The notes under the pieces are model-generated. The model was not told the origin of the DNA and ran no database searches. It worked only from the letters and a program-made list of their open reading frames with translations. Positions 2,088-11,700 of a stretch of DNA of 23,005 nucleotides are shown here, piece after piece (position 1 is the stretch's first letter; each line of letters begins with the position of its first letter). The DNA lies in contig NZ_BDUD01000007.1 of the NCBI RefSeq assembly GCF_003113895.1, positions 1-23,005 on the forward strand, read 5' to 3'. This stretch comes from Nostoc commune NIES-4072 (GTDB lineage Bacteria > Cyanobacteriota > Cyanobacteriia > Cyanobacteriales > Nostocaceae). A program made the position numbers and the translations under genes.

Positions 2088-2561
2088 ATGGATGTTCTTG
2101 ATTTGTACAGGCGGTACGCTGCTGGAGAAAGAGATTTTAGTGGGGCTGATTTGAGTGATATCAAGCTCAATATTGCTAAGGTTCGTAAATATGATTCCGC
2201 TATGAATAATCTCAGCAACATTAACTTGAGTGGTGCTAATCTGACTAGAGCCGATATGCGCTACGTAAACTTTAGTGGCGCAAACCTAAGTTATGCCAAT
2301 CTGGAAATTGCTATCCTGACATCTGCTAACTTGACTAATGCTGATTTAAGTAATGCTAATTTGTATTGCACTGACTTGGACGGAGCCAAACTAATCAACG
2401 CTAATCTACGCGGAGCCAAACTGGTGTCTGTCAGAATACACGGTGTTGATTTGACTGGTGCTGATTTGAGAAGTGCTGATTTTACGGGTGGTGGGGGAAT
2501 GATCACCTTTTGTAACACCATCATGCCGGATGGTACTGTCAGAACCGAATATATTGACTGA
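2088..2561 (+). CDS. Pentapeptide repeat protein
   Basis: 157-residue pentapeptide-repeat protein. After an N-terminal cap with YRRYAAGERDFSG it shows successive A(D/N)LSxxx-type repeats: LSGANLTRAD, FSGANLSYAN, LTNADLSNAN, LRGAKL, LTGADLRSADF. It ends with a FCNTIMPDGT tail also present in the paralogue at 3751-4275. Such repeats fold into a right-handed quadrilateral beta helix. Some members bind DNA gyrase as DNA mimics, but most cyanobacterial ones have no known partner. The ATG at 2088 follows GTAGGAG by seven bases, a good ribosome site. No signal peptide or membrane segment is seen, so it is probably cytoplasmic. Confidence 0.92.
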   Translation: MDVLDLYRRYAAGERDFSGADLSDIKLNIAKVRKYDSAMNNLSNINLSGANLTRADMRYVNFSGANLSYANLEIAILTSANLTNADLSNANLYCTDLDGAKLINANLRGAKLVSVRIHGVDLTGADLRSADFTGGGGMITFCNTIMPDGTVRTEYID

Positions 2562-2915: not shown

Positions 2916-3344
2916 CTAGTTGCCGAAGTATTGGGATTTAGTGAGGAACTTAATTTCAGGAACTTGGACATTCTTGAAGCGGTCGAAATGTGGGGAAGTA
3001 CACTCTACGAAGGCGGGTTGCCACAAATTGGCTCCATCCCAGATAGTATCCCTGAAATTGCAATTAATGAAGGTAGACCCCGTTATACCTTTTACCCCAG
3101 TGAAATCGGAACCAGTGAAATCAATATCTTCCCATACAACAAGCTCCCATTTAGCATAGCTGAAAATAGCGTTCCTCATAGTAGAACCACTGAAGTCGAT
3201 ATCAATAAAACAACCTTTCAGATTAATGCCACTGAGGTCAACGCCTCTGAAAAAACCTTCACGTCTGTCCTCAATAGTAGCAGTAGCGAAATTTCTCCGT
3301 TCAGCAGCGTAGAAGCTCAACAATTCCTCAGCATTTATACTCAT
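2916..3344 (-). CDS. Pentapeptide repeat protein, divergent
   Basis: 142-residue protein. Its N-terminus (ELLSFYAAERRNF) is a diverged form of the cap seen in the two neighbouring pentapeptide proteins. Repeats follow with bulky centres: FFRGVDLSGINLKGC, IDFSGSTMRNAIFS, IDFTGSDFTGVKG, STFINCNFRDT, IWDGANLWQPAF. The repeat run is irregular compared with the paralogues, and the C-terminal FCNT...PDGT tail is missing. The opposite strand is also open over much of this stretch, but only the minus-strand frame gives the repeat pattern. The ATG at 3344 follows a GAGAAAG-like purine stretch. Function unknown. Confidence 0.87.
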   Translation of the reverse strand: MSINAEELLSFYAAERRNFATATIEDRREGFFRGVDLSGINLKGCFIDIDFSGSTMRNAIFSYAKWELVVWEDIDFTGSDFTGVKGITGSTFINCNFRDTIWDGANLWQPAFVECTSPHFDRFKNVQVPEIKFLTKSQYFGN

Positions 3345-3750: not shown

Positions 3751-4275
3751 TTAGAAAAAGCTAATGATCTTCGTACCATCTGGCAGAGTGGTATTACAGA
3801 AAATAGCTCCCTCAATCCTTGGGTTCTCGATCCCACCAGGGAGGTCAATTCTAGCTCGACTCAGATCGACATCAGTCAAGTTAGCTCCTTTGAGCAACGG
3901 TTCATTACCGATGAGCGTTCCAGTCAAATTAGCCCCATTGAGGTTAGCCCCATCCAAAGGACAGGCAGTCAAGTCGGCATAGCTGAGGTTAGCTCCACTC
4001 AAGTCAGCTTCAGACAAAACCCCATCGGATATAACAGCATGACTGAGGTTAGCCCCACTGAGATTAGCTTCTTCCAACCAAGCACTGCCCAAGTTCACAT
4101 GACTGAGGTTGGCACCACTAAGATTGGCTCTGTCCAGCTTGGCACCAAACAAGATTGCACCACTCAAATTAATCCCTGGCAATTCGGCATCTCTCAATCT
4201 GGGGCTATCCAGCTTTACTCCACTGAAATCTCTTTCCCCAGCAGCATAACGCTCCAGCAATTCTGATTCAGTCAT
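3751..4275 (-). CDS. Pentapeptide repeat protein
   Basis: 174-residue pentapeptide-repeat protein with the most regular repeat run of the three. The cap LLERYAAGERDFSGVKL is followed by INLSGAILFGAKLDRANLSG, ANLSHVNLG, EANLSGANLSHA, EADLSGANLSYADL, ANLNGANLTG and ANLTDVDLSRA. The C-terminal tail IFCNTTLPDGTKI matches the protein at 2088-2561, so the two are likely duplicates in opposite orientation. The ATG at 4275 is preceded by GGGGTAGG, a usable ribosome site. No secretion signal is present. The plus strand is also open across this region because the repeats lack stops in antisense; the minus frame is clearly the coding one. Confidence 0.93.
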   Translation of the reverse strand: MTESELLERYAAGERDFSGVKLDSPRLRDAELPGINLSGAILFGAKLDRANLSGANLSHVNLGSAWLEEANLSGANLSHAVISDGVLSEADLSGANLSYADLTACPLDGANLNGANLTGTLIGNEPLLKGANLTDVDLSRARIDLPGGIENPRIEGAIFCNTTLPDGTKIISFF

Positions 4276-4350
4276 AACCTACCCCGCACCAGCATCAATT
4301 AATACTATCCTTTCTAAACTTCCCCTTGATGTCATATAACCAGGATTTAA

Positions 4351-4476
4351 GAACTCGTGGCTCGGAGTCGGCGCAGCGGAGTGGCTCTTGCGGGCTTGCA
4401 GGATCTAGTTGGCCCAATCAGTAATCTTTCTGCCCGTAAGAGCCACCGACTCCGAGAGCGTAGCGGTCACGAGTTC
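4351..4476. repeat. Long imperfect inverted repeat
   Basis: GAACTCGTG (4351-4359) pairs with CACGAGTTC (4468-4476), CTCGGAGTCGG pairs with CCGACTCCGAG, and TGGCTCTTGCGGGC pairs with GCCCGTAAGAGCCA, with short unpaired pieces between. The arms are about 45 bases long around a loop near 4395-4430. It resembles dispersed palindromes of Nostoc-type genomes. It lies upstream of the third pentapeptide gene. Downstream, 4480-4900 holds no supported gene. Confidence 0.75.
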
Positions 4477-6146: not shown

Positions 6147-7676
6147 TCACAAGCTAAAACCACGGTCAAGCTGTTTCTGCTTTTGTTGCTCCTCCCTGAG
6201 ATGAGCTTCTAGTTCCTGACTCCAATCAGGATTATGGGTTTTGAGCCTTTTACCCTGTGGCAATAATTCTAATACTGCACTAGCAGCAAGATTCCCTTGC
6301 GAATCATTATTGAATGCTACGACCACCCTATTGAAACTCTTGAGAAATTCCATAGGTAGGTTATTCGGGTCATCAGCTACCATCAACATGGTTCTAGTTG
6401 GTGGTAGTCCCTTGCAACTTGAGATCAGGTAGGTGGCTGCTGACATGGCATCAATTGGTGTAGAACACAAAAAGACGTTTTCTACCTTGTCCGTTGGTTG
6501 CCCTCCCAATCTCAGATAAAACCAACCTTTTTGTGTAGAGGTGTTTTGGTCGTACTCCACAGTGCGATGATTTTCTCTAGGCTTTGACCAAACTAATGCA
6601 CCAGTTTTTTCACCATCTAAATCACGCTTGATAAACAAAATATTTCGTTGCTCATCCATGTAAAGCAACTGATTATTATGTAATCCTTGCACAATATAAT
6701 CTGGTATATAGCGTTTCTCGTCCAAATACTTGTGCAACACTTGCCAAACAACTTTATCCTCTGGTGGTGGAGTGAACTGGGGCTGTTGTTTGCGTTCAAT
6801 TTCTTGAAGAAACTTTTCTAACTGCTCAATTGGGAGTGGTTTAGCAGGAATCACCAGAATTTGATTAATGCGCTCATCATCACGTTCTGGTTGGTAGTCA
6901 ATGCCACGATGTTTTTGCAGTCCTGGGAAGGTATAGGCAGGCCCCAAAGATGTACCGCTAAATTTCTGATCATTCCATGAGTAAGAGATGCCTTTACTTT
7001 TACCGTTGCGTGTTAGCCCATGACGCATCTCAATACCCAACAGTTGCAATCGTTCCATCAGTTGGGGCATAGTCGGTTTATCTACTGTGGCGCGGTCAAT
7101 TAATTCAATTAGTTGGGTTTTGATTGGCTGTTGTGGCGGCGTGTTTCTCTCACCCTGCTCATATTCTAGTTGTTCTCTTTCAACTCGTCGCTGTTGCCCT
7201 ACGCTGGGGGCGCGGTTCAGTTTCTCCTTGCTATTGAGGGTCTGCTGTAACCCATATTCTAGTTCTAGCTGTCGAATGATTTTTTCAGAGCGCACATACT
7301 CCCAGCTATCACGGGTAATCTTGCCGTCATCCAAACTGATTCTGCTGGCGCAAATGTGTATATGGTCGTGGTTGCGATCGCTGTGGTGGTAGATGGCATA
7401 TTGGTTAGCTGTGTAACCCATTTCCTCGATGTACTTGTCGGCTATCTCGCACCAAGTATCATTGTCTAGTTGTTCGCCTGGGCTTAGTGAAAGCGAAACA
7501 TGATGAACTACTTTTTCTGCTTCTGGATTAAGTTGTCGAGACAGTCGGAATTCTCTGGCTAATTCTCTGGCATTTGTGCCAAACATATTGCCGCCAATTA
7601 AGGATGACTCCTCTTTGTTTTCAAGATAGTCAAGGAGTCCGCGAAAGCTTTTACCTTTGGTTTGGTTGCCAATCAT
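6147..7676 (-). CDS. MOBP-type relaxase with DUF3991/Toprim-like C-terminus
   Basis: 509-residue mobilization relaxase. It nicks one DNA strand at oriT and carries it to the recipient. Residues 1-150 form the relaxase/mobilization nuclease domain: probable catalytic Tyr17 in GLLDYLE and the metal-binding histidine motif YHHSDRNHDHIHI at about 96-108. Residues about 305-365 resemble DUF3991 (KYLDEKRYIPDYIVQGL, KRDLDGEKTGALVW). Residues about 398-475 are a Toprim-like domain (CSTPIDAMSA, VVVAFNNDSQG). In that domain the usual glutamate before PIDA is serine (405), and the first aspartate of the DxD pair is asparagine (456), so the Toprim site looks degenerate. The start lies two bases after the mobC stop, so translation is probably coupled. 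Confidence 0.9.
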   Translation of the reverse strand: MIGNQTKGKSFRGLLDYLENKEESSLIGGNMFGTNARELAREFRLSRQLNPEAEKVVHHVSLSLSPGEQLDNDTWCEIADKYIEEMGYTANQYAIYHHSDRNHDHIHICASRISLDDGKITRDSWEYVRSEKIIRQLELEYGLQQTLNSKEKLNRAPSVGQQRRVEREQLEYEQGERNTPPQQPIKTQLIELIDRATVDKPTMPQLMERLQLLGIEMRHGLTRNGKSKGISYSWNDQKFSGTSLGPAYTFPGLQKHRGIDYQPERDDERINQILVIPAKPLPIEQLEKFLQEIERKQQPQFTPPPEDKVVWQVLHKYLDEKRYIPDYIVQGLHNNQLLYMDEQRNILFIKRDLDGEKTGALVWSKPRENHRTVEYDQNTSTQKGWFYLRLGGQPTDKVENVFLCSTPIDAMSAATYLISSCKGLPPTRTMLMVADDPNNLPMEFLKSFNRVVVAFNNDSQGNLAASAVLELLPQGKRLKTHNPDWSQELEAHLREEQQKQKQLDRGFSL

Positions 7677-7678
7677 TT

Positions 7679-8083
7679 TTACTCCCAGTCTTCCGAATCA
7701 CTGTCATCATCAATGTCATCGTCATCAGTAACTTCAGTTTCGATTTGGGACAACTCCCGACCAATTTGTTGTAAGAGTTCTTGTAGCTGTTTTAGTTGTT
7801 CTGGATCTGCGGGTGGTCGCAGTCCCATTTTAATAGCTGTGTTAGTAGCTCTAGTGAGTTGATTAATATTGCTGCCGATGCGGACTAATTCTCGGTAAGT
7901 AGCTAGGGTTATTTTGCTCAGTCGTTTGGGCAGTGGTTTTAATAAAACACTGCGTCTAGTTAATTCAGCTATGCTTAGTCCCGCGTCTTGTGCTTTCAAC
8001 TTAATCATCTCGTGTTCGATTGCGTTGACACGAGCTTCTAATGTCTTAGTACGAAGCAGGTTTTTTGACAGTTTGGGACGCAT
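7679..8083 (-). CDS. mobC: MobC-like relaxosome accessory protein
   Basis: 134 residues from the ATG at 8083; an upstream GTG at 8131 would give 150. The conserved MobC-like part is LEARVNAIEHEMIKLKAQDA followed by LTRRSVLLKPLP and YRELVRIGSNINQLTRATN, and a glutamine/leucine-rich helix leads into an acidic tail (DDDDIDDDSDSEDWE). MobC proteins bind oriT next to the nick and help the relaxase open the strands. Its stop is two bases from the relaxase start, so the two form one operon. Neither possible start has a clear Shine-Dalgarno. I prefer 8083 because the added 16 residues are proline-rich and overlap the putative oriT dyad. Confidence 0.82.
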   Translation of the reverse strand: MRPKLSKNLLRTKTLEARVNAIEHEMIKLKAQDAGLSIAELTRRSVLLKPLPKRLSKITLATYRELVRIGSNINQLTRATNTAIKMGLRPPADPEQLKQLQELLQQIGRELSQIETEVTDDDDIDDDSDSEDWE

Positions 8084-8110
8084 AACTGTGGGAGGTATGA
8101 GAGGGGGTTT

Positions 8111-8191
8111 CCAAAGGGGGATGCTTCCCACTTTGGCAAGCCTGTCGTCCGAGCGGAGCGAGGTTTGCCGTAGGCAAAAGGCACGGCTTGC
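8111..8191. other. Candidate oriT region (dyads upstream of mobC)
   Basis: Three nested or adjacent inverted repeats lie directly upstream of the mobC-relaxase operon. CCAAAGGGGGA pairs with TCCCACTTTGG (8111-8136). GCAAGCC (8136-8142) pairs with GGCTTGC (8185-8191). Inside that lies TTTGCC-GTA-GGCAAA (8164-8178). oriT commonly lies in this position for MOBP/MobC systems. No nick consensus could be fixed. Confidence 0.4.
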
Positions 8192-8278
8192 TTCTAGCCA
8201 AAATATGGGGGGTAAGCGAGGTGTCGAGTGCTACGTATGTACGGAGGGCACAGCGAGAGGCTGAGGGCGGAAGTACAA

Positions 8279-8619
8279 CGGCGTAGCCGTGATGCTGACT
8301 ATCCTACAATCTACAGAGGGAGATAGCAACGGCGTAGCCGGAATTTAAGATAATCAAGCAAGAGATAAATTCTGGTTCGGCGTAGCCACAATAGAAGAAA
8401 TAAAAACGGCGTAGCTGCTATATGAAAATTCTCTTCTTCAGCGAAGCTGCCACACAATATAATAGTCCGGCGTAGCCACAATACTAAAAAATAATTCAGC
8501 GTAGCTGTTTTAAGTAAAATTCTCTGATTTAGCGTAGCTGTAATAGTCAGATTTTTTAGCATTAGCTTGAATAAGACTACCAGCGAAGCTGCCACACTAA
8601 AAAATATAAGGCGTAGCCG
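8279..8619. repeat. Array of ten GCGNAGC mini-hairpins
   Basis: Ten copies of RGCG(T/A)AGCY start at 8280, 8331, 8379, 8408, 8440, 8469, 8498, 8531, 8582 and 8610. Stem bases co-vary (GGC/GCC versus AGC/GCT), while the loop stays GTA or GAA. Spacing is mostly 28-33 bases, with 48-51 at both ends. The array lies in AT-rich DNA between the rep gene end and mobC. No supported gene overlaps it. Confidence 0.85.
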
Positions 8620-8713
8620 TAATACGAAATGGAGAGAAATTAACCACGCTAAAACTAGACTGCTTTTTGAAGACCGCAGTGCAAATATGATTTTAAAATT
8701 AGTCAAGTCTATT

Positions 8714-11700
8714 TCAGTCCCTATTTACTGGTGTAAGTTCAGTGAACGGCAATAAAACCACTGTATTGTTGGTTAAGTTCAGACATCTTAAGCTACTATC
8801 TAATGTTTTGCTCTGTACCAAGAACTGGTCATCATCTCCTGTGACGGTACATACAAGTCCAATCAACGTTTCTATAAGGGATTTCGGGTGATGTTGATTT
8901 GGATCTCCTAGATTATTTTGAATATTAAAAGACATAGATGATCCATCAGACTCTCCAAGATTTTTCAGCCTTTCGCGTCGTGCGGCACGTTTAGCTAATA
9001 TGGACATCAGGTTAGACCAGATTTCAGCATCCAGTCGGTAGACTTTAATTTTTTGCCTCTCAAACCCCGGCTCAAACCTCGACCAGCGAAAAGCCGCTTT
9101 GATTCCCAACTGCGATAACATCTGATGCACAACCTGAACATCACTCATTTTGTCGCTAATGGTGAGTTTGAGATGGTGGAATATTTCTGGGGCATAAAGG
9201 CGAATCTTGTCGGCGTAGGGTTTGAGGTCAGCTTTAGTCCATTCTTTTTTTGGATCTAAAAAGTCGTTTAATCCAAATGCTTCTCGCATAGAGCGCCGCA
9301 GCGCTGTACCAGAAATATCCCACGGGCAAACAGCTTGATTCCAATTAGCTTGTTTCTCTAATGATTTGGCGGTTCTGTCAATTCCTAATGCAGGGTTAAG
9401 TTGCGCTTCTAAATTGAGCAGTTCCCCGCGTCGTCGGCCTTCTTTGTCCCAAAGTACATCTTCTAGAGTTAGCTCGTCTACGCAGTAGAAATCTTTCAGG
9501 TAATATTTTCTAATTGCTAGTGCGTCTTCTGGTGAAACTGCCTCTTGGGATTCCAAGAGGGCAATTTCTGGGTAAGTTAAATCGGCGGCGGCTACTATGT
9601 CTTTGGCTTCAATTTGTTTGATTTCGTCTTTGGCTGACTTTAGTAACAGTTTGACAGCTTTATCCGATTCTCGATTATCAATTTTAATCTGATGCCCTTC
9701 ATGTTTTAGTCTTATAAGCAGTGCATCAGAGAGATTCATCATCGAATAATTCTGCTCGGCACTAATTCGGGCATACAAATTAACATGAGGGTTTGATTGC
9801 CAATCGAAATTAGCAATACCTTCAACAATATCTGGTCTGAGGTTGGAGCGGACTAAGCTAACAGTGGCATCTGTTCTCTGTTGTAATTGGGCTTTAATTT
9901 CTAGATAATTACTGGAACGAGAAACTTTACAGTAATTTGTCCCACGTTTGGCACACCAAACTGTGCGGTCTACGTTGTCTCGTAGTCGGGCTAAAGATTG
10001 GGACATATCAGCGTCGGTGGATGATGCCCCGGTGAAAATTCCATAGACTTTCTCGACAAAATCTGGAATTTCTATGCTGACTCCGGTGGCGACTGTGGGA
10101 GAACAAATAATTACGTCATATAATCCTTCTGCAATCACAGCATCGGGAGTTTTCAAAAACCTTTTTTCATCAGGATTGCCACTGGTTTCTGAGTTAACTA
10201 GCAGGATTCTAATACCAGGAATTTCTTTTTGTAGCAGTCGGGCTGTTGTCTTGCTGGTGGCTTTGCTATCTGTGGTGACATATAGCGCCTTACCTTGCTC
10301 GATGTTCCGTGCATTTTGGATTAACTCGTTTATAACAGCTGATTTATCTTTGGCTTGAATAAATGTGACGTGGTAGGGTTTGGGTTGATAGTCGTTATAA
10401 ATTAAGTAGATTGGAGCCGGATCTGCTTTCAGTTCCCAGAGGTAATTTAGGGTTGGGTTGTTTAAATCAGCGTCAGCAACAATTATCCTCCGGGCGACTC
10501 TAATTAATTCTGCAAATCTTGCTAGTAATGCTGGACGTTTCCCGTCTTTATCACAGGTGCTAGAAGTTAATAAGTGACGAACAACTTGGACAATTTCATC
10601 AATCATTAAGTCACAGCCAGCAAATTTTTTCGGGTCGATGGCTAGGAGTGAATCAACACAGAAACCAATTCGGAAGCTGTAAGCTGATCCTTTGATAAAA
10701 TTGCCGTTGACTTTATCTAAGTCGCCTCGGTAATCTAAAGAAGCCCTGGCACATAAATTCTGTACGAGCGCTATTCTGTGACTCGGTGCTAATAATTTCG
10801 GAGAATGCGCTGTTGTTTTGGCCATAAACTTAGTTTTACCAGTGCCTTTGCCTGAGTTAAGGGCAATAATTCCTGACTCAGGTAAGTCTTTGATCTCTAA
10901 GGTCGATAAGTCGGCTGTGGTTAGTTTTAATGAGGGTTCGTAAGTTAACCGATTTTCTAAGCGTTGCCACAACTGCCAATGTGCTACTGAAAGGGCTTGG
11001 TTTAAGGCTGTTGACCACGCAGCCACGCCAGCATTTACTATCAGGTCATCAACGCCTTTACACAGTCCTTTTTGACCGTCCCAGATGGCGATATCAACTA
11101 TTGAACCGGCGGCGGTCAGTAATCGGCTAAAGCGGAAAGTCGCAGCGTTAACTCGTCTCTGGGTTAGAGTATTGGTGTCTTGGTCAAAGGCGAGGGTAAA
11201 TTTTCTCCCTTTAACAGCAAATCGTGCTATATCTGAGATTAGATAGGGCAAGACTTGGTTGCCTAATAAATCCTTGCTGCGGTAGCCGCCGTTAATTCCG
11301 TAAAGGGCAATGGCTACATACCCCTGTGACAACAGGCATAAGGATTTTTTACCCCCTTCTGTAATGATGATTGGGATTTCTGGGTGGAGTTCTAGCCAGT
11401 TCCAGAAACTTTCGCCAGGAGGGGGGACTTCTACGCCGTAGCGGTTGGCTATTGAGCGTCTATTTTCTCGGTTGACGGTGGGGAGATAAGCCCGTGAGCC
11501 GTTGCCAATTGGGGTTTCGTATTTTTGATCCTTGTCTTTTTTCGTGTCAATCCTGGGTTTACTGAGTTTGCCTTGCCAGGGGCTACCGTCTTCGTTAATA
11601 AATATTGCGGCGTGGAGTGTGGGTTTGGCTTGATGCCCAAATCTGGTATATTTCCAGTTCAGTGCGTCGTGGATTGGGGTTGAGACATCCCCCCCAGCAC

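Follow-up and report, generated by a model that had tools for sequence, protein, structure and literature searches.

The DNA analysed here, referred to below as the window, is the complete 23,005-bp contig NZ_BDUD01000007.1 of the cyanobacterium Nostoc commune NIES-4072, the genome of which comprises 8.2 Mb. The element in question is an array of ten GCGWAGC heptamers (eight GCGTAGC and two GCGAAGC), all on the + strand within positions 8281–8617, where a first-pass annotation of the window had noted a series of mini-hairpins with GNA loops. The array is situated next to the relaxase and mobC genes and the origin of transfer (oriT) of a plasmid mobilization module.

The hairpin array and the mobilization module

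The heptamers start at positions 8281, 8332, 8380, 8409, 8441, 8470, 8499, 8532, 8583 and 8611, with start-to-start distances of 51, 48, 29, 32, 29, 29, 33, 51 and 28. Each forms the core of a short + strand hairpin. The longest, with 5 bp, is unit 1 (ACGGC-GTA-GCCGT, 8278–8290); unit 2 is CGGC-GTA-GCCG (8330–8340). Units 3 (8379–8387), 6 (8469–8477) and 10 (8610–8618) are of the form GGC-GTA-GCC, and units 5 (8439–8449) and 9 (8581–8591) of the form CAGC-GAA-GCTG. The remainder are unit 4 (CGGC-GTA-GCTG, with one G.T pair, 8407–8417), unit 7 (CAGC-GTA-GCTG, 8497–8507) and unit 8 (AGC-GTA-GCT, 8531–8539).

In 2000 local shuffles of positions 8262–8640, GCGNAGC occurred on average 0.25 times and at most three times, as against the ten copies observed. 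On both strands of the host genome GCGTAGC was found 852 times, or approximately once per 9.6 kb (its reversed control, 471 times), so that eight copies in 0.34 kb do not represent background. A three-unit pattern matched the host genome only inside the array (three overlapping matches); its reversed control gave one match. It is apparent from the shuffles that the ten-unit array is real, and the heptamer is not scattered through the genome at a similar density, a possibility that the first-pass annotation had itself raised. A random heptamer background is ruled out by these two results.

The genes to the left of the array are directed away from it. A MOBP-like relaxase gene (PF03432, with DUF3991; 6147–7676, − strand), whose match to the NCBIfam TraI/MobA(P) family falls below the cut-off of that family, is followed by mobC (7679–8131, − strand; start codon uncertain), a NikA-like/MobC gene (Pfam PF21983 and PF05713) in the place of traJ. 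A search of viral contigs with MobC revealed no relative. The oriT inverted repeat (8136–8191) has the arms GCAAGCC (8136–8142) and GGCTTGC (8185–8191), is conserved in relatives and has an R751-like layout. Inside it lies the hairpin TTTGCC-GTA-GGCAAA (8164–8178, + strand), the eleventh GTA-loop hairpin of the first-pass annotation. The predicted nic neighbourhood (8192–8202, + strand), placed by analogy with R751, consists of TTCTAGCC with a putative cut within a few bases.

Setting of the array in related plasmids

A blastn search with positions 8101–8720 matched 35 plasmid records. In eight of these a single place covered at least 80% of the query, and all eight matches end at query positions 528–532 (approximately 8630 in the window; homology with relatives ends just after unit 10, at approximately 8629–8632). 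In those plasmids the array continues with one further unit (mutated in L007), and approximately 100 nt past this last unit lies a rightward gene, here labelled K, encoding a small helix-turn-helix-like domain and a disordered tail. The array of the relatives is thus situated between oriT/mobC and K. In the window, the next unit and K are missing past approximately 8630 (no match to K was found), and a rep gene now adjoins the array.

Neighbouring genes were counted for arrays of at least five units with gaps of up to 110 bp, smaller arrays being left out. Among 60 distinct arrays (62 counted, less the simple tandem repeats L025 and L026), mobC was found divergent and upstream in 59, the exception being L055, at a contig end, and K downstream in 58, the exceptions being the window and L044, also at a contig end. 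Arrays found by pattern alone among the matches listed numbered 17 (16 distinct), with mobC in 17/17 and K in 15/17; the other 13 of the 30 loci fetched from those matches (L020–L029, L033, L037 and L045) were other repeats or chance matches.

The species genomes of GTDB were also scanned from the side of K. At least three + strand copies of GCGNAGC were present between oriT and K in 55 of 64 loci, although the oriT inner hairpin accounts for one of the three counted in L099; on the − strand, these stretches held five single matches in total. The remaining nine loci comprised L060 and L068, with two units each, six from Fischerella/Westiellopsis without an array, and one short contig. Unit number per array ranges from 0 to 14. 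With a looser pattern, 43 of 217 genomes of the family Nostocaceae gave matches, some of which are other repeats. Outside the family, 262 of the 291 genomes sampled from the order yielded one match, G332, apparently a simple tandem repeat. The array is conserved in Nostoc plasmids, and the system that carries it is common in them.

These results bear on which protein might read the array. The first-pass annotation had placed the array between rep and mob genes and had considered the Rep primase-helicase as its reader. The position is correct for the window, and the mobC side of it is general, but the rep neighbour is peculiar to this plasmid; in related cyanobacterial plasmids the array is indeed conserved, but the gene next to it is K. 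The Rep of the array carrier pNPM7 (L001) is just 29.5% identical to that of the window, so the rep neighbour is incidental. A link to Rep is not supported and was rejected, the constant neighbours of the array being mobC and K; the suggested tie to plasmid transfer is supported. The relaxase and MobC are possible readers, a case weakened by L012 and L013, which have the oriT core and mobC as in the carriers, yet no array.

Three further observations concern these plasmids. On NZ_CP054696.1 (pNe_4; L002 and L017) there are two mob modules, and a separate hairpin array accompanies each of them. In the array-less L012 and L119, the stretch from oriT to K holds other inverted repeats, such as CTCAATGGCG...CGCCATTGAG of L012, and these are perhaps a different structural solution. 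In p057_F of Nostoc sp. C057 (L008, 799–3149), two genes annotated as belonging to the HBL/NHE enterotoxin family adjoin the mob module.

Conservation and covariation of the units

Units were compared in an alignment of 47 arrays, with four pairs per unit. Arrays with few or differently spaced units (for example L052, L053, L059–L062, L066–L068, L076, L081, L087, L088, L099, L101–L104, L107, L010 and L011) were left out, as were L055 and copies. Paired cells made up 93.0% of the alignment, as against 91.6% in shuffles. Cells changed on both sides numbered 43, as against 13.0 ± 4.0 in shuffles, none of 500 of which reached 43, and when the partners were slid the number was at most eight. Nine pairs had a double change, compared with 5.7 in shuffles (10/500). 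The covariation of the outer pair from G-C to A-T, first noted within the window, holds over the 47 arrays, and the array is conserved as short hairpins on one strand whose stems undergo compensatory change.

Shuffle tests ignore relatedness, and changes were therefore also counted on a tree built from the spacers. Changes per site were 0.36 for the inner stem, 0.64 for the loop A, 1.64 for the loop G, 2.73 for the middle of the loop and 2.80 for the spacers, i.e. the inner stem has evolved approximately eight times more slowly than the spacers. The three inner pairs are well kept, the third having undergone 11 changes from one Watson–Crick pair to another, 16 to G.T and four to A.C, and the fourth is free and often C.A. 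The loop had been described as staying GNA; this form is preferred, but it is not absolute, since replacement of the loop G by A is fairly common (15 changes inferred).

A selfish or neutral expansion of repeats without function would accord with the range of unit numbers, and other short repeats in Nostocaceae genomes fit the same pattern. The constant place and orientation of the array, the slow inner stem and the compensatory changes argue against it, and it is the least probable of the explanations weighed here.

The two halves of the heptamer differ. The AGC half is the steadier, with 0.64, 0.00 and 0.09 changes per site, compared with 0.55, 0.82 and 1.64 in the 5′ half, so either the sequence is recognised along with the shape, or the CpG within GCG has a higher mutation rate. 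An asymmetry of this kind is not predicted by the fold alone, and counts in favour of an alternative in which K or a host factor binds the units as ordinary double-stranded direct repeats, the hairpin being incidental; the stbDRs of R388 are duplex repeats in this very place. Such a duplex operator is nevertheless unlikely: the outer pair covaries, the loop is off-centre and same-handed, and the faster mutation of the CpG in the 5′ half may account for part of the asymmetry.

It was also considered that the array might act as RNA, forming a leader or an attenuator in transcripts of K (or mobC). A transcript across it would carry approximately ten short stems just before K, and G.U occurs at the outer pair of unit 4 in 14 of the 47 arrays. 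Over all units, however, G.U is rare at the outer pair (20/654, a set that still includes approximately 48 copies of the oriT core motif), no Rfam family was found in the window at the gathering threshold, and no promoter-like or terminator-like site was found on the + strand of the one region scanned (L005, 2070–2700). An RNA leader is accordingly very improbable.

The first inter-unit gap also holds a well-kept block at 8297–8307 (CTATCCTACAA, ATCCTAC), which resembles the IncP nic motif. It lies approximately 100 nt from the oriT repeat and is absent in the array-less L012 and L013.

A probable leading-region element and its possible reader

The closest precedent for the array is provided by the repeats of R388 that are bound by StbA, and by the TraK site of RP4. 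In these plasmids and in R751, as in Nostoc, the repeats or binding region lie by oriT and before the first leading-region gene, that gene codes for a small DNA-binding protein (predicted in the case of K), and the relaxase operon is divergent; in some, a ParA-like gene is next. The Nostoc units differ from the stbDRs, which are 9-bp repeats with 2-bp spacing, in being covarying GNA hairpins approximately 30 bp apart. K shows no clear sequence homology to TraK, and the P-loop gene is mostly absent from the Nostoc loci. In L001, L012 and L015, a KGGTGK-type gene follows K in the position of TraL/StbB.

The order of R751, as read, is traI−, traJ−, oriT, traK+, traL+, traM+, and its inverted repeat with inner hairpin is followed by CATCCTG on the strand that runs to traK. 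Corresponding parts follow one another in that order in the Nostoc oriT, namely arms, inner hairpin and then TTCTAGCC, and the Nostoc module resembles the IncP-type (RP4/R751) MOBP module in that the relaxase and traJ-place genes diverge from the gene in the traK position, with oriT between them and with the inverted repeat between the traJ-place gene and the nic side. It differs in that no ATCCTG nic motif adjoins the Nostoc inverted repeat, and the window itself has lost K. Because of the R751-like layout, the + strand would be the transferred strand, leaving nic near 8200 and passing through the array into K.

It is very probable that the array belongs, as an element of the leading region, to a mobilization module of IncP-like type, and the data suggest that the transfer signal consists in part of folded DNA. 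The reading favoured here, to which we give an even chance in its full form, is that the array is a cis-acting element of this MOBP module, probably read by K. Nicking to the right of the oriT inverted repeat would send the + strand into the recipient with the array first, and the GNA loops would lie on that strand. By analogy with the promoters of phage N4, the C(GNA)G units could be extruded from supercoiled duplex, in which case the hairpin form would occur in the donor plasmid as well as on the transferred single strand. K, in the place of TraK and StbA, might bind the repeated units as duplex or in extruded form; the proposed K–array nucleoprotein complex next to nic could set the expression of K and might keep transfer and segregation in balance, in the way that StbA acts at its own repeats.

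The N4 virion RNA polymerase promoters resemble the Nostoc units in their short stem, C-G closing pair, and loop with a 5′ G and a 3′ A. According to PMC4496689, these promoter hairpins extrude from supercoiled DNA and depend both on the closing C-G pair and on the G and the A of the loop. In exact units such features are present by construction; the closing C has undergone 0.82 and the closing G 0.00 changes per site. Unlike the N4 promoters, the Nostoc element is an array of ten and not a promoter with a downstream start, and we know of no N4-type polymerase in this Nostoc system.

Several observations weigh against the favoured reading. With regard to folding, the energy of the whole array of the window is ordinary (z −1.75 and −1.73 for the two strands), and one of the five measures of covariation did not exceed the shuffles: further pair types numbered 24, as against 25.0. 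The DNA folding energy of a single unit is approximately equal on both strands, the parameters used having given the GNA side no advantage. With regard to the transferred strand, R751 carries another ATCCTG, on the opposite strand and at a distance from the inverted repeat, and Nostoc oriTs have TTCTAGCC instead of ATCCTG at the expected place. Wobble types at the inner three pairs comprised 23 changes to + strand wobbles and nine to − strand wobbles (the heptamer CpG confounds this count), with the direction reversed at the second pair (0 vs 5) and the fourth (14 vs 30); this strand test was dropped, since the pairs disagree in direction and the CpG confounds it.

The remaining objections concern K. 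Its kinship to TraK (PF17273) appears weak from sequence comparison: K matched the CENA543-type K with an E value of 2.5e–7, and the latter matched TraK with 7e–4 and a probability of 26%, but the direct comparison of K with TraK gave a probability of 0.7%. The structural model of K (predicted template-modelling score, pTM, 0.35) superposed on StbA with a poor root-mean-square deviation, unrelated chains ranking higher, and sequence searches of solved structures with K, the CENA543-type K and TraK gave no credible match. Closely similar K helix domains occur in the array-less L012 and L119, and the link between the K N-terminus and the array may be only physical linkage. Ten intact units persist in the window, which has no K in cis, though contig C8 of the same genome carries a K; in L116 and L117 the units have decayed and K is retained. 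Just eight of the 64 loci, five of them array-less, have a P-loop (TraL/StbB-like) gene at most 900 nt after K.

As a separate observation on this gene, the K genes of L104, L106 and L113 become unrelated sequence at or near 'LLKEQKP..', and arrays are still present in L104 and L106.

The array might instead be a single-strand signal only, acting without K as folded DNA after transfer or in rolling-circle replication, with second-strand priming, loading of host proteins or protection of the 5′ end as its role. This is a tentative alternative, distinctly less probable than a K-read element. The GNA loops are strand-specific: in 76 array regions GCGNAGC occurs 610 times on the + strand and four times on the − strand; the + strand figure may comprise copies of the conserved oriT core motif, and tandem descent adds to it. 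In all 56 K loci (of 64) with an identified core motif, the inner loop of oriT is GNA or GNNA, and both GNA arms of a second, distal element (described below) are on the same strand. The single-strand origin sso1 of ICEBs1, according to PMC4595007, is on the same side of its oriT; in this comparison, made by description and not by sequence, it is likewise a single-strand element on the leading side, but is not described as an array.

Against this, K is oriented in the sense of the putative transferred strand, which would therefore be no template for K; provided that the polarity holds, a single-strand promoter of K does not fit. Leading genes are described in PMC11541004 as 'encoded on the T-strand', a phrase that may mean either strand. 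Frpo/ssi single-strand promoters share with the array the presence of folded single-stranded DNA in the leading region. They are described in PMC9849209 as single larger structures, one large stem with −10/−35 boxes, in contrast to the short separate stems found here, and they differ also with respect to the sense of K. A primer made at the array before recircularization would, moreover, copy just the stretch back to nic. A role in single-strand initiation, as had been suggested for the array, is possible.

The other GCGNAGC pair of the window (4371 and 4458) lies on the far side of the relaxase gene from the array, inside a 125-bp inverted-repeat element at 4350–4475. Its + strand folds as a branched hairpin with a long stem and two GCGNAGC side arms (z −5.85, with none of 200 shuffles as good), and the − strand also folds well (z −5.20). 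The element was found in 19 plasmid records, including those of the array carriers L001, L002, L004, L006 and L007 and the array-less L012, L013 and L118. In 14 sequences, eight pairs were changed on both sides, compared with 2.1 in shuffles (0/500). The side-arm loops vary in their middle base, and the loop of the first arm is longer or altered in several rows (L002, L004, L085, L012 and L011). The relaxase side enters last as a general rule, according to PMC11541004; the distal element would be among the later parts of the transferred strand, and it may serve as a single-strand origin or as another signal. Three open reading frames elsewhere in the window (2088–2561, 2916–3344 and 3751–4275) are pentapeptide-repeat-like by eye.

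G-N-A-type loops are present on one common strand in three elements of the module, i.e. the oriT inner hairpin, the array and the distal element. Because this is the inferred transferred strand, GNA mini-hairpins could conceivably constitute a strand-specific folded-DNA code, in which the relaxosome and recipient factors would read shape at the first and last transferred parts; this is a speculative extension.

No naturally occurring array of d(GCGNAGC) hairpins that evolve by compensatory changes was found in the literature searched, and what appears to be new is a leading-region element built of covarying mini-hairpins. In our view, little is known of what leading-region DNA does apart from its genes and Frpo promoters. 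If a transfer signal is indeed read in the form of folded DNA, conjugation would be connected with the biophysics of GNA hairpins, and the system, with one protein, one array and one strand, is directly testable.
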